Positions 21,152 to 25,108 of a stretch of DNA of 25,173 nucleotides are shown here, one piece after another (within the stretch, counting starts at the first letter, position 1; each line of letters opens with the position of its first letter). The notes under the pieces were generated by a model. It saw nothing but the letters and a program-made list of their open reading frames with translations, did not search any database and was not told where the DNA came from. Location: the IMG/VR virus record IMGVR_UViG_3300022925_000165, positions 1 to 25,173 of that record, one strand, 5' to 3'. Origin of the DNA: a virus. The position numbers and the translations under genes are program-made.

Positions 21152-22846
21152 TTATGAGTAGTTTGCAAACTTCTCAACTGTTTTATCTGCGTTTGTTGTT
21201 CCTATAGATGTGTTCATGTCATTAGTCATAGTGGTAGAATTGTCAGAAGTAACAACGCTATTATTGATAAGATTTGTGCCTGCACCATTTTGAATTTCTA
21301 ATTTTTCTAGTTCGTTCACTTTCATTTCATTTACCTTTTCATTTTTTTGTAAAGGTATAAAGTTAGTATCCATTAGTCCCATTGCAGCTGATTGGCCTGA
21401 ATACATTTTTTCTAAATCTTCAGTTGTACCACTAAACAAAACATCGGATGTTTTTTGAAAAAATGATTTCTTTGGATACATTGTACTAAATTTATTAGGG
21501 TCTTCATTGTAAAGTTTTATCTTATCAATGTTTTTCATTGATTCCGCATTACCTTTATCTGCCCGATTACTTCCTTCTATATATTTTCCTATGCCAATAT
21601 TCTTTCTAGCATCTCTAAATTGCTCAAATGACATATCACCTAATTCACCTTTGTATTTGGTGTACTCATCTTTTATAATTGCTTCTTTTTTAGGTTCATC
21701 AAGTGATCCATAGTCCAAATTTGTTTCATCATTATATCCAAATGCACTTTCTTGTTTTTCTATCTCTCTTTCATTTGGATTGTCGTCCCTTGAACCAAAA
21801 AAGTATTTAACAAGTTTACCTATTGCTGTTCCTACTGCACCTCCAAACAATACAGTTATGCCTAATCCTGTTGCTGTTAATCCTGTCAATGCTGTTGCTA
21901 CTTTACCAGCGTTTGGTACAAACCCTGGTTTTGTAAACATATCTTTAAGAATTTTTATGCCCAAAACTTTTTCTAAAAAACCAACTCCCTCATCACTCTC
22001 TCCACGTTTTTTACCACCTAATAATTCGTTTGTTAATTCAGATTCAATTAATATCTTTTCTAACAAACCTGATGATGTTTCAAATTGTTTATCAGATTCT
22101 CGTTCTTCTTCTACTAAATTTTCTTTTGATACACTTCTTGCACTTATTGATGGTGCTTCTGTAAATAGTGATGATGTGGCCTCTTTTGCTAATTCTTCTC
22201 TTTGCTCTGATTGTGTTTGTACGGTACTTTGTCCACCAGTTTTAAATTGCTCTTTAGCCTCTTTTGTTCTTAATCTTCTTTTCAAAGATAATGCTTTACT
22301 CTCTGCCTGTTCATCAGACTCAATCGCCCTTTCAATTCTTTTACCAATGATTGGTATATTTGTAAGACCTATTCTTTGTGCTAATTTTAAAGGTTTTAAT
22401 TCTTTTTTGAAATCTCTAAATGATAATGATAATTTTGTGGTTAGTCCTAAAACTTTTTTTAGTTGTTCATTTGTTCTACCTACAGTTTCTTTTATGAATA
22501 TAAGTTCCTCATCACTAATAATGCCTTTTTTATTTAATCCTTCATATTCACCTATTTCTTTTTCAATAGTCTTTTGTAAAGTCTTTGCGTCATCAAACTC
22601 CATTCCTTTTAATCCTTCTAAATCACCAGGACCGTAGTTTATCACATAGTTTACTATATCTGTTCTTATTTTAGCATCATTTAATTTACTTTGATTCTGA
22701 TACCCAGCAGATTTCTCTAACTGTGATTGATATTCTTGCAAGGCATCAGATATAGCAAACTTAGGATCAGACTCTTCTTCTTTTTGTCTTTTAAGAATCT
22801 TATTAAAGTTTTCAGGATTTGCTTTTTTAAAGACTTTTGATTGCAT
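21152..22846 (-). CDS. Probable tail tape-measure protein (gp29-like)
   Basis: 564 residues, close to T4 gp29 (590). No clear sequence motif, but the architecture fits: a long charged helical N-terminal half (about 1-290, rich in Lys, Glu, Gln and Leu), one strongly hydrophobic Gly/Ala-rich segment near residues 315-345 (TALTGLTATGLGITVLFGGA, then VGTAIGKLVKYFFG), and a polar C-terminal half ending in low-complexity Asn/Thr (NNSVVTSDNSTTMTNDMNTS). Tape measures set tail length and pass into the cell envelope during DNA entry. Position also supports it: directly before gp48, as 29 is before 48 in T4, and downstream of the gp26 chaperone-like pair. The overlapping plus-strand frame at 21780-22637 is a shadow. 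Confidence 0.6.
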   Translation of the reverse strand: MQSKVFKKANPENFNKILKRQKEEESDPKFAISDALQEYQSQLEKSAGYQNQSKLNDAKIRTDIVNYVINYGPGDLEGLKGMEFDDAKTLQKTIEKEIGEYEGLNKKGIISDEELIFIKETVGRTNEQLKKVLGLTTKLSLSFRDFKKELKPLKLAQRIGLTNIPIIGKRIERAIESDEQAESKALSLKRRLRTKEAKEQFKTGGQSTVQTQSEQREELAKEATSSLFTEAPSISARSVSKENLVEEERESDKQFETSSGLLEKILIESELTNELLGGKKRGESDEGVGFLEKVLGIKILKDMFTKPGFVPNAGKVATALTGLTATGLGITVLFGGAVGTAIGKLVKYFFGSRDDNPNEREIEKQESAFGYNDETNLDYGSLDEPKKEAIIKDEYTKYKGELGDMSFEQFRDARKNIGIGKYIEGSNRADKGNAESMKNIDKIKLYNEDPNKFSTMYPKKSFFQKTSDVLFSGTTEDLEKMYSGQSAAMGLMDTNFIPLQKNEKVNEMKVNELEKLEIQNGAGTNLINNSVVTSDNSTTMTNDMNTSIGTTNADKTVEKFANYS

Positions 22847-22849
22847 TTA

Positions 22850-23119
22850 TTATTTCTTTGTTTCTATTTTACTAGGTTTACCATTTACATATAAACCAAA
22901 CCAAGCTGCACCAGCACCAACAACTACAGATACAAAACCTGCCTGTGCATTGTTTGGTTCAGGTAATGCCATAAACCATTGCATTGTCATATAGAAAGCA
23001 TATCCATATAACAACATGAATACTCTTGGTATTAATCTCCAGTTTGACATAAACTGAGGTACTTCATCTCTTAAAAATACCCATATGTTAACTATTATAT
23101 TTTTTCCTACTTCTATCAT
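22850..23119 (-). CDS. Small membrane protein with two helices (89 aa), holin-like in shape
   Basis: MIEVGKNIIVNIWVFLRDEV precedes a first hydrophobic helix (about 32-52, VFMLLYGYAFYMTMQWFMAL), a short loop with PEPNNAQA, and a second Gly/Ala-rich helix (about 60-78, AGFVSVVVGAGAAWFGLYV), then a lysine-rich tail. Size and topology resemble class II holins, and similar proteins occur in marine T4-like phages, but the location between tail-chaperone and tape-measure genes could equally mean a tail or DNA-entry role. Its ATG overlaps the stop of the upstream frame (ATGA), with GAGGAAGA as ribosome site. Confidence 0.75.
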   Translation of the reverse strand: MIEVGKNIIVNIWVFLRDEVPQFMSNWRLIPRVFMLLYGYAFYMTMQWFMALPEPNNAQAGFVSVVVGAGAAWFGLYVNGKPSKIETKK

Positions 23120-23316
23120 GTTCTTCCTCTTTGTTTCTCTCTTAACTTTTCGTTTTCTTCTTTTATATGTTGCATTAATAGTTCAACATATATGTCCCTC
23201 TCCCATGGTATCATTCCTTCAAGGTCTGATAGAGAATATTTATGATATTGCATTAAAGCAAAATTTGTTCTAAAATAACTCTCTAGGCTCTCATGTAAGA
23301 GGGTAACTGAAAAAAA
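23116..23316 (-). CDS. Downstream frame probably expressed by -1 frameshift from gp26
   Basis: This frame is open from a TGA at 23319-23317 to the TGA at 23118-23116 (66 codons). It has no ATG, GTG or TTG before the ATG at 23253, and that ATG lacks a ribosome site and would cut off a well-formed beginning. The peptide reads ...ESLESYFRTNFALMQYHKYS, then LSDLEGMIPWERDIYVELLM and a charged helix EENEKLREKQRGRT. An HKYSL...E-x-MIPWERDIY segment is familiar from small proteins next to gp26 in T4-like phages, sometimes labelled hub assembly proteins. Entry from gp26 by -1 slippage at 23310-23316 would give a 296-residue fusion (232 + 64). The stop overlaps the next ATG, so it lies in the coupled chain of genes. 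Confidence 0.65.
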   Translation of the reverse strand, partial: FFSVTLLHESLESYFRTNFALMQYHKYSLSDLEGMIPWERDIYVELLMQHIKEENEKLREKQRGRT

Positions 23317-24005
23317 TCAGTTGCACCTTGTAATAACAAATTGTGTTCAACACCCGACTTAGGGTTTTTATATTTTATCGTATGTGATATAATTGGCAAA
23401 GTATCAAAATAATCTTTTATCTTTTTAAATTGTGTCATTGTAAGATTATCTAAAAACTCATTCAACTCTTCCTTTTCAATTTCTTTTGCTTCAAATAATT
23501 CTTCACCTTGATATATTTGATCAATGCAATCTCTCATTAAATTAATTGACATATCTAAAATTGTTCTTTTGTTTGCAACTTCTTTGATTGTAGGTATTCT
23601 CATCATTACACCGTAATCTTTTGTAAATTCAATTTTAGTATTAATCTTTTTATTTAAATCAGGTTTTACATCTTCTATTTTTAATTCATAATCAACAACT
23701 TGTGTTTCATCATCTGGACATTTTAATTTCAAATTCACAACCTCACCAATAGATTTTGATCTTATGTTTAACCACAACCATTCAAAATCATATACAGGCA
23801 GTTTCTTAACATCTATATCACCTTTTACACACGCTTGTACAATATCAATTAAGATATTAACCATTTCACTTTCATTTTGATTTTCATTTGAAAGTAACAA
23901 TAGTTTTTGTTCTTTTACTAAGAACGGCCTGTACTTTATTTTTACATTATTTGATAATGTTAAATCATATTCAGGCACTTTCATTAATGGTATACTCATT
24001 TTCAC
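23283..24005 (-). CDS. 26: Baseplate hub/tail-assembly protein gp26 (T4_baseplate family)
   Basis: 240 residues. Start MKMSIPLMKVPEYDLTLSNN, then KIKYRPFLVKEQKLLLLS (the characteristic RPF/YLVKE-x-KLLL block of the family), DIDVKKLPVYDFEWLWLNIRSKSIGE (about 80-105), and LNEFLDNLTMTQFKKIKDYFDTLP before the C-terminus. In T4, gp26 is needed for hub assembly. Soluble helical proteins of this kind are also found as tail chaperones. AAGGAG lies 5 bases before the second Met (MKM). The last codons contain the slippery run that leads into the downstream frame; the zero-frame end is QLPSYMRA. Family call sure; chaperone role inferred. Confidence 0.85.
   Translation of the reverse strand: MKMSIPLMKVPEYDLTLSNNVKIKYRPFLVKEQKLLLLSNENQNESEMVNILIDIVQACVKGDIDVKKLPVYDFEWLWLNIRSKSIGEVVNLKLKCPDDETQVVDYELKIEDVKPDLNKKINTKIEFTKDYGVMMRIPTIKEVANKRTILDMSINLMRDCIDQIYQGEELFEAKEIEKEELNEFLDNLTMTQFKKIKDYFDTLPIISHTIKYKNPKSGVEHNLLLQGATDFFQLPSYMRA
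23310..23316 (-). promoter_or_regulatory. Putative -1 ribosomal frameshift site T_TTT_TTT
   Basis: Seven T's on the coding strand are placed so that the gp26 frame reads T_TTT_TTT_CAG, a canonical X_XXY_YYZ slippery heptamer. The -1 frame has a TGA immediately before it and is open after it. An imperfect stem (TTACCCTCT with AGAGAGTTA, 7 of 9 pairs) starts 3 bases downstream. Confidence 0.55.
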
Positions 24006-24016
24006 TCCTTATATTA

Positions 24017-25108
24017 TTAATAAAATATGTTTCGTATAATTTTAGGGTCTGGAAGACCTTTTGGGAATACACTACCACCCGTTACTCTACCTATCGGTAT
24101 ATTCTTTTTAATTGTTTCATAAACTTGACGACCAGCTCTACCTATTTCGTTACCAATACCAAATGGTAAATTATCTAAAAAACTACCTTGTATGTTTGTA
24201 GTATTTGTTCTATATTCCATTCTGTCAAGCGTTTTAAATTCTTCAGTATTATTTTTTGCTAGAAAGTTCCATGCTGTTGTAGCATAATTTCTATATGTAA
24301 ATGTGACACTTGTTTTTACAAATTGATTTGTAGCATCATAACTTAATGGTGTAGCAGCAATTGTTTTAGGCCACACCTCATACATTTGTACTTGATATGA
24401 TGAAAATCCAGATTGATCACCTAAACTTTTTCTTAACTCTTGTCTATCTCTGCCTGGATCACCTGATGGTTCAAAGTTTGCCAATGCAGCTGTAAATGTT
24501 TTTGTTAATGGTGTAATTGTAATCATACATGGTGTGGCATAGTCATCATAATATCCTACGTTGTGACTGATAGGATCAATTATAGAGTTTTGCCATGCTT
24601 CAAAAAATAATCTTTCTTCATAATTAACACTAGTGTAAAATTCTAATGTTACATCACCATATTGTACATTTTTTGCCATTGCTCTTTTAGGTCCATAATA
24701 CTGTTCATTGACATCATCAGTTATTGTTTTATCAGGTATACTAACATTTGAGCAAAATAAATCCATTCTTAATTGTAAATTTGTTTTAATGGCATCAGAT
24801 AGTTTAGCACTTTTATGTAATCGAGCAACTTGATCTAATGATTGAGTGTCATTATAAATGCCAACATTTCCTAATGCACTGCCTTTAGGGCCATCTACTG
24901 TAACTAGAAACTGTGTTGGTCTAGCAAATCCACCAGATTGTGTAATACCTGATCTAAATCTGTTAAATATAGAATCTCTATTTGTTGTTTTGTTATTATA
25001 ATCAAAACGTTTGTTTGTATCATTAACACTAAACTGTGATTTTGATGGTGGTATACCTAAACGTATATCTAAATCACCTATCTTTTTACCGACACTAATT
25101 AATGACAT
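24017..25108 (-). CDS. 54: Tail-tube-fold baseplate protein, gp54-like
   Basis: 363 residues (T4 gp54 is 320). After a variable start, ARPTQFLVTVDGP begins the fold. The key segment LFCSNVSIPDKTITDD...VQYGDVTLEFYTSVNYEERLFFEAWQNSIIDPISHNVGYYDDY (about 112-190) matches the T4 gp54 run IYSVKIPENRLSHEM...LDPLTLSFRMDPEASNYRAMQDWVNSVQDPVTG. Later YQVQMYEVWPKTIAATPLSY...TSVTFTYRNYATTAWNF is the closing strand pair. In T4, gp54 joins gp48 to start the tail tube. A tube-protein paralogue is the alternative, since gp19 and gp54 share this fold. The start overlaps the stop of the upstream gene (TAATG), with GGAGAT as ribosome site. Confidence 0.72.
   Translation of the reverse strand: MSLISVGKKIGDLDIRLGIPPSKSQFSVNDTNKRFDYNNKTTNRDSIFNRFRSGITQSGGFARPTQFLVTVDGPKGSALGNVGIYNDTQSLDQVARLHKSAKLSDAIKTNLQLRMDLFCSNVSIPDKTITDDVNEQYYGPKRAMAKNVQYGDVTLEFYTSVNYEERLFFEAWQNSIIDPISHNVGYYDDYATPCMITITPLTKTFTAALANFEPSGDPGRDRQELRKSLGDQSGFSSYQVQMYEVWPKTIAATPLSYDATNQFVKTSVTFTYRNYATTAWNFLAKNNTEEFKTLDRMEYRTNTTNIQGSFLDNLPFGIGNEIGRAGRQVYETIKKNIPIGRVTGGSVFPKGLPDPKIIRNIFY

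Follow-up and report, generated by a model that had tools for sequence, protein, structure and literature searches.

The window analysed here is a 25,173-base IMG/VR virus record in which T4-like tail genes lie on the minus strand (Table 1). The gp26 gene follows a tail-tube-like gene, and is separated together with its -1 frame from a 564-aa gene by a single 89-aa gene (phrog_10198). Downstream of the 564-aa gene lie gp48-like (tail tube cap), gp53-like, tail protein and gp5-like genes. Its place in the gene order, with the gp48-like tail tube cap gene next to it, makes the 564-aa gene a candidate tape measure; a BLASTP comparison with the gene in the like position of phage Mosig found no similarity. 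The 89-aa gene is 87% identical to its Mosig homologue and gp26 only 37%, and DNA identity between the window and Mosig increases along the locus, from 54% (gp26) through 75% (-1 frame, TAC-C) to 83% (89-aa gene).

Table 1 Features of the gp26 locus and its neighbours, in the order in which they are read on the minus strand
Feature	Position	Strand	Basis
Tail-tube-like gene, precedes gp26	24017-25108	-	
gp26, short form TAC-N, 240 aa, zero frame	23283..24005	-	PF12322, phrog_150, AlphaFold model
Shine-Dalgarno-like AAGGTG, 7 nt upstream of the heptamer	23324..23329	-	Anti-SD pairing score
TGA in the -1 frame, abutting the heptamer upstream	23317..23319	-	Sequence
Putative slippery heptamer U_UUU_UUU	23310..23316	-	In gp26 frame, from sequence
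-1 frame after putative slippage, TAC-C/gp51 C-terminal domain, 64 codons + stop	23116..23310	-	phrog_634, phrog_150
Predicted hairpin CUCUU-ACAU-GAGAG, small and weak in the window, 8 nt past the heptamer	23288..23301	-	Pairs in the register of stronger hairpins of some relatives
gp26 zero-frame stop TAG	23283..23285	-	Sequence
Earliest candidate start codon of the -1 frame (ATG)	23251..23253	-	Sequence; scan for ATG/GTG/TTG
Next gene, 89 aa, phrog_10198 (unknown function)	22850..23119	-	Between the chaperone locus and the 564-aa gene
564-aa gene, candidate tape measure	21152..22846	-	Gene order

The 3′ end of gp26 in the window reads GAT TTT TTT CAG TTA CCC TCT TAC ATG AGA GCC TAG. An earlier note, made from the sequence alone, had read this region as a -1 frameshift site, and the features that it listed are all present: T_TTT_TTT in the gp26 frame eight codons before the stop, a -1-frame TGA directly 5′ of it, a 64-codon -1 frame with protein-like content (containing MIPWERDIYVELLM), no ATG, GTG or TTG in that frame before the ATG at 23253, and an ATGA overlap at 23119-23116 between the TGA of the -1 frame and the ATG of the next gene. 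The -1-frame peptide runs from SVTLLHE to RGRT and its stop codon occupies 23118-23116. Eighteen minus-strand ORFs of the window (6269 codons) were scanned for in-frame T_TTT_TTN as a test of chance occurrence. Eight were found; that of gp26 alone lies at most 10 codons from a stop, and it is the only one of the eight at which the -1 frame outruns the end of the gene. The note had rested its case on the placement and the missing start codon rather than on the T-run itself, and the placement is indeed singular among the eight.

Profile searches showed that gp26 matches PF12322 (T4_baseplate) at E 9.8e-56 (residues 11-232, model positions 2-218 of 219) and phrog_150 at E 3e-57, and T4 gp26 matches the gp26 alignment at E 1.5e-17. 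When reading begins at the heptamer, the -1 frame hits phrog_634 ('baseplate hub assembly catalyst'; E 1e-28, positions 56-117 of 121) and also positions 231-281 of phrog_150 (E 8.6e-6); when it begins only at the ATG, the phrog_634 match weakens to E 4e-18. The joined product spans positions 3-281 of 282 in phrog_150 with 227 bits, where gp26 alone ends at 234 with 195 bits. In T4 gp51, residues 1-201 match PF12322 (E 4e-52) and residues 200-244 match the TAC-C alignment (E 9e-5); with the PF12322 domain and the TAC-C tail in one frame, it can be read as an in-frame long form. T4 gp26 gave no match to the TAC-C alignment. The -1 frame thus corresponds by homology to the C-terminal domain of T4 gp51. 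The conserved heptamer and -1 frame described below, the nearly end-to-end phrog_150 match and the layout of T4 gp51 together identify gp26 as TAC-N and its putative extended form as TAC-NC.

The AlphaFold model of gp26 (39 sequences; pLDDT 85.8) places the last helix at residues 227-232, ending at the slip site, with a low-confidence tail at 234-240. Modelled alone, the -1 frame is helical from its second residue (pLDDT 81.5, pTM 0.57), and from these separate models of the two parts the long form would therefore plausibly carry on the last helix of gp26 into the -1 frame. When the gp26 model was aligned with 320 chains, the best matches were 2ob9, the HK97 tail assembly chaperone (Z 7.1), and 3klu, YqbN, a phage chaperone relative (Z 6.8); the next match had Z 2.1. 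Both cover gp26 residues 1-88, and both Z scores are below the aligner's caution level of 8, under which a match can reflect a common arrangement, so that the fold match is supportive and not decisive. The predicted gp26 fold bears a moderate resemblance to the HK97 tail assembly chaperone. A Foldseek search with the gp26 model gave no match at E 0.001 (best E 1.3), and profile searches of the sequences of solved structures gave nothing usable (best E 0.055 for gp26 and 0.29 for TAC-C).

Relatives were collected by tblastn with gp26, which hit 515 phage records at E 1e-5 and 601 at 0.01. A total of 178 loci was assembled from the window, 160 IMG/VR loci chosen by gp26 similarity (the best 80 of 85 and the best 80 of 595), five loci from scans with the gp26 of OLIVR5 (one) and phiAS5 (four), and 12 isolate regions; the set leans to the relatives of the window because loci were picked by gp26 similarity. 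Four loci were too short past the gp26 stop and were dropped, and the 174 usable loci gave 120 distinct junctions once duplicate contigs and two isolates present twice had been removed as identical junctions. An in-frame heptamer U_UUU_UU(C/U/A) was present near the end of gp26 at 119 of these 120 (78 TTTTTTC, 36 TTTTTTT and 5 TTTTTTA). Its first Phe codon lies 2-10 codons before the gp26 stop, which follows 0-2 codons past the Phe-Phe pair in 84/119 junctions; the 8-codon tail of the window type is found in the other 35. Other Phe-Phe pairs in the same 119 genes are slippery in 7 of 108 cases. Among nine isolates taken later, the heptamer was found in five (Xanthomonas X1, Vibrio VH7D, BUCT-ZZ01, S-CRM01 and P-SSM2). 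In Vibrio VH7D (L183:1520-1700) the heptamer is followed by a gp51-like -1-frame peptide, and the frame is unannotated in the record. In blastn, 13 of the 40 phage records listed have a nucleotide match to the window starting at query base 693 or 696, which lie two bases ahead of the T-run and one base inside it, respectively. A chance T-run was considered as a candidate explanation and is rejected in view of the 119/120 conservation, the rarity of slippery Phe-Phe pairs elsewhere and the singular placement in the window.

The -1 frame is open from the heptamer in 119/119 junctions, with no inner stop in any of them, and measures 58-71 codons where it is complete. Its peptide is conserved from its very start (consensus FFRIxLxHxxLENYYxxNFALMQHHKYSLTELENMxPWEREIYV), and of columns 2-21 after the slip, 18 of which were counted, 15 vary most at the third codon position of the -1 frame. 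The counted columns 2-21 precede any start codon in 57-100% of sequences, and columns 5-21 in 57-71%. Judged by codon variability and peptide conservation, the -1 frame after the heptamer is coding before any start codon in the relatives. A reading of the frame as a separate small gene, translated from its own start (in the window, the ATG at 23253) or through coupling with termination of gp26, with the T-run as a coincidence of AT-rich DNA, is how the frame is annotated in the deposited records of Mosig, S-PM2, P-SSM2 and others, and an ATG does lie 2-14 nt past the first base of the gp26 stop codon in 39/119 junctions, so that coupled initiation would be possible in those clades. However, across the 119 junctions the first possible start falls at 16 different places (between -1 and +92 nt, counted from the gp26 stop), while the peptide 5′ of it is conserved, and the separate gene is rejected as the main reading because of these two observations. 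In nine of the 119 the first ATG stands at +92 nt, inside the conserved core; the SD-like element is at least 15 nt from the first start after the heptamer in all 119, which exceeds the usual spacing; the heptamer is kept in 119/120 junctions; and a separate 45-aa protein would be without the gp26-like domain found in T4 gp51. Taken together, we regard a separate gene as highly unlikely.

An intermediate reading is that both modes operate, the frameshift making the long form and an internal start adding a free TAC-C in some clades. The first ATG lies at +5 in 28/119 junctions and at +14 in 6/119, and T4 is annotated with an internal-start gp26′; the position of the start is nevertheless not conserved across the set and the SD-like element is too distant to serve the +5 and +14 starts, which leaves this combination improbable, if less so than a separate gene alone.

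The heptamer is missing from Vibrio D533, the sole exception among the 120 junctions, from three Ackermannviridae and from two Tevenvirinae, T4 and Salmonella Melville; the three Ackermannviridae and Melville are the four of the nine later isolates that are without it. T4 has separate genes 26 and 51, and the Phe-Phe pair of its gp26 is retained in the same position but encoded by the non-slippery codons TTC TTT. In both T4 (L093:5803-7229) and Melville (L184:658-2091) gp26 is encoded on the opposite strand from gp51, with Phe-Phe as TTC TTT. As the pair is kept without slipperiness in these two phages, part of its conservation may lie at the protein level. The opposite-strand arrangement and the TTC TTT codons are consistent with a loss of frameshifting after a second, fused gene arose. 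The published study of T4-like tail chaperones discussed below reportedly found that several T4-like groups retain frameshifting and that T4 has genes 26 and 51 in its place. In the three Ackermannviridae (L180, L181 and L188, each at 1500-1700) and D533 (L089:2050-2280), gp26 ends in ATT TTC ATT TAA or CTT TTC AAG TAA, and the -1 frame still continues with a gp51-like peptide that is alike among all four loci; for GG32 and UPM 2146 the likeness reaches beyond the first start, into upstream sequence that carries no gene annotation. These phages may possibly use a different slip site, one-tRNA or T7-like.

Signals flanking the heptamer were assessed against synonymous-codon permutations in a clade set of 44 representatives of less than 75% identity; the P-values treat related sequences as independent, and the use of representatives reduces the effect of kinship and does not remove it. 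The best anti-SD 8-mer stops 6 or 7 nt short of the heptamer in 93/119 junctions. Its pairing energy in the 44 representatives was -6.37 kcal/mol, against -4.89 in permuted sequences and -2.09 elsewhere in the gene, with 34/44 representatives better than their own permuted mean and 9/44 singly at rank <=0.05. The best anti-SD 8-mer of the window scores -6.3 kcal/mol, equal to its own synonymous permutations and showing no excess. Downstream, the folding energy of nt 1-40 after the heptamer was -6.62 versus -3.56 expected in the 44 representatives (19/44 at rank <=0.05), and four later windows showed no structure excess at p 0.05 in the same representatives. In the larger sets the excess is less neatly confined, with smaller later excesses in the 84 junctions of short overlap (nt 61-100, p 8e-4) and in the 35 of long overlap (nt 31-70). 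The long-overlap group, to which the window belongs, had a smaller excess over nt 1-40 (-4.19 versus -2.77 expected, median rank 0.31). A plain dinucleotide-shuffle test over 60 nt gave a weaker signal (mean z -0.76 versus -0.42 in a control region), and the downstream structure of the window itself is ordinary (z +0.84 over 60 nt and -0.40 over 45 nt).

In 62/119 junctions (22/44 representatives) the longest stem begins 5-9 nt past the heptamer; in 41 it begins elsewhere, and 16 have no stem of at least 5 bp; pairing registers differ from clade to clade. Compensatory changes in two hairpin groups, which were chosen after inspection of the stems, are modest (5 cells and 3 cells): two-sided pair changes were no more frequent than in shuffles, 172 and 158 of 500 of which reach the observed number, and the covariation score lay mostly above them (2 and 37 of 500). 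The SD-like element and the downstream structure thus exceed synonymous-codon expectation across the clade representatives and do not clearly do so in the window. Since the set shows the excess, and the hairpin of the window is small and its SD score equals its permutations, the putative stimulators are best regarded as a family property on average. A more specific proposal is that gp26/gp51 frameshifting in marine T4-like phages would be driven by a dnaX-like signal of SD-like element, U_UUU_UUY and hairpin, in which the hairpin would be selected but rebuilt in clade-specific registers, so that the ratio of short to long form would stay constant although the RNA structure setting it turns over. 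We give this proposal a little less than an even chance, a judgement lowered by the finding that only about half of the stems start at the usual spacing.

The same flanking signals bear on slippage by the polymerase rather than the ribosome, in which a T-run would give mixed mRNAs and normal translation of the shifted mRNA would yield the fusion. The site is a homopolymer run, of 7 T in the window, as this would require, but the uninterrupted run is just 6 T at 83/119 sites (7 at 31 and 8 at 5), and 6-T runs are short for polymerase slippage. Ribosomal slippage agrees with the codon phase, with the SD-like element and with the structure downstream, and transcriptional slippage is in our view very improbable.

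We consider it very probable that, through -1 ribosomal slippage on the U run, one gene of the phage yields the tail-assembly chaperone in two forms, short and long; from the sequence architecture, the conservation and the homology we infer the slippage, its rate and the action of the products as chaperones. The P-site and A-site tRNA-Phe would slip together one base back on U_UUU_UUU, and reading would resume at UCA. A slipping minority of ribosomes would produce TAC-NC and the rest would stop at TAG and release TAC-N. In the family, the SD-like sequence upstream and the RNA structure downstream probably aid ribosome pausing, as in dnaX. On the lambda G/GT model, TAC-N would coat the tape measure, and TAC-NC would recruit the tube subunit. 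The earlier note had claimed that gp26 extends by -1 frameshifting into a second chaperone-like frame. The extension is upheld by conservation and homology; the frame is not a second chaperone, being instead the C-terminal extension of the long form. The further claim that gp26 and the -1 frame are the T4-like counterpart of lambda G/GT is supported by the 119/120 heptamers, the gp26 family and the gp51 C-terminal domain, and the alignment across marine T4-like phages, which the note had suggested as a check, retains the heptamer and the -1 relation (119/120) while start codons wander.

Tail chaperones of T4-like phages were identified by Vladimirov, Gautam and Davidson (2022, Virology 566:9-15), and passages citing that study state that T4-like TAC-N genes carry a poly-T -1 signal and that some T4-like phages have a short gene and a separate fused long gene instead. 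The window comes from an uncultured marine group and, as far as those passages describe it, has the same poly-T TAC-N layout. The gp26/gp51 frameshift is accordingly a well-supported new example and not a new kind, because the arrangement in T4-like phages is already in print (Vladimirov et al. 2022). Among the titles and abstracts listed in a literature search of non-subscription papers, none describes gp26/gp51 frameshifting for cyanophages, and marine T4-like phages were not mentioned in passages retrieved by term from further papers citing Vladimirov et al. The additions made here are a survey of how widely the heptamer is conserved in IMG/VR and the tests of the SD-like element and structure, and the signal analysis may be new. 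A 2016 review still names T4 as the exception to G/GT-type frameshifting, and a 2010 comparison (PMC3037559) describes cyanophage and marine vibriophage gp51 as being without the first ~200 residues of other gp51 proteins, which frameshifting from gp26 would supply. If the frameshift reading is true, the short 'gp51' genes of cyanophages and pelagiphages would be the end of a gp26-gp51 fusion and not stand-alone proteins, and it would suggest that the Tevenvirinae swapped frameshifting for two genes. An abundant marine phage group would also become a test bed for recoding and tail-length control.

The lambda slippery sequence, G_GGA_AAG, differs from that of the window, and the likeness to G/GT drawn here is one of layout. 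The E. coli dnaX signal consists of an SD-like element, a slippery heptamer and a hairpin, a layout like that of the window's family; its heptamer is A_AAA_AAG and its shift ends in an early stop, whereas the shift in the window would lead to an extension domain. The role of the SD element in dnaX is stated in a published abstract. For lambda, a review assigns coating of the tape measure to the short form and recruitment of the tube protein to the long one. The Vandenendeviridae and Andersonviridae, according to a report on phage Adele (PMC12846349), also have a TAC-N with a poly-T -1 site, and their TAC-C frame is likewise annotated as a hypothetical protein; the invariant motif of that group is given there as GTTTTT, compared with T_TTT_TT(C/T/A) in the family of the window.
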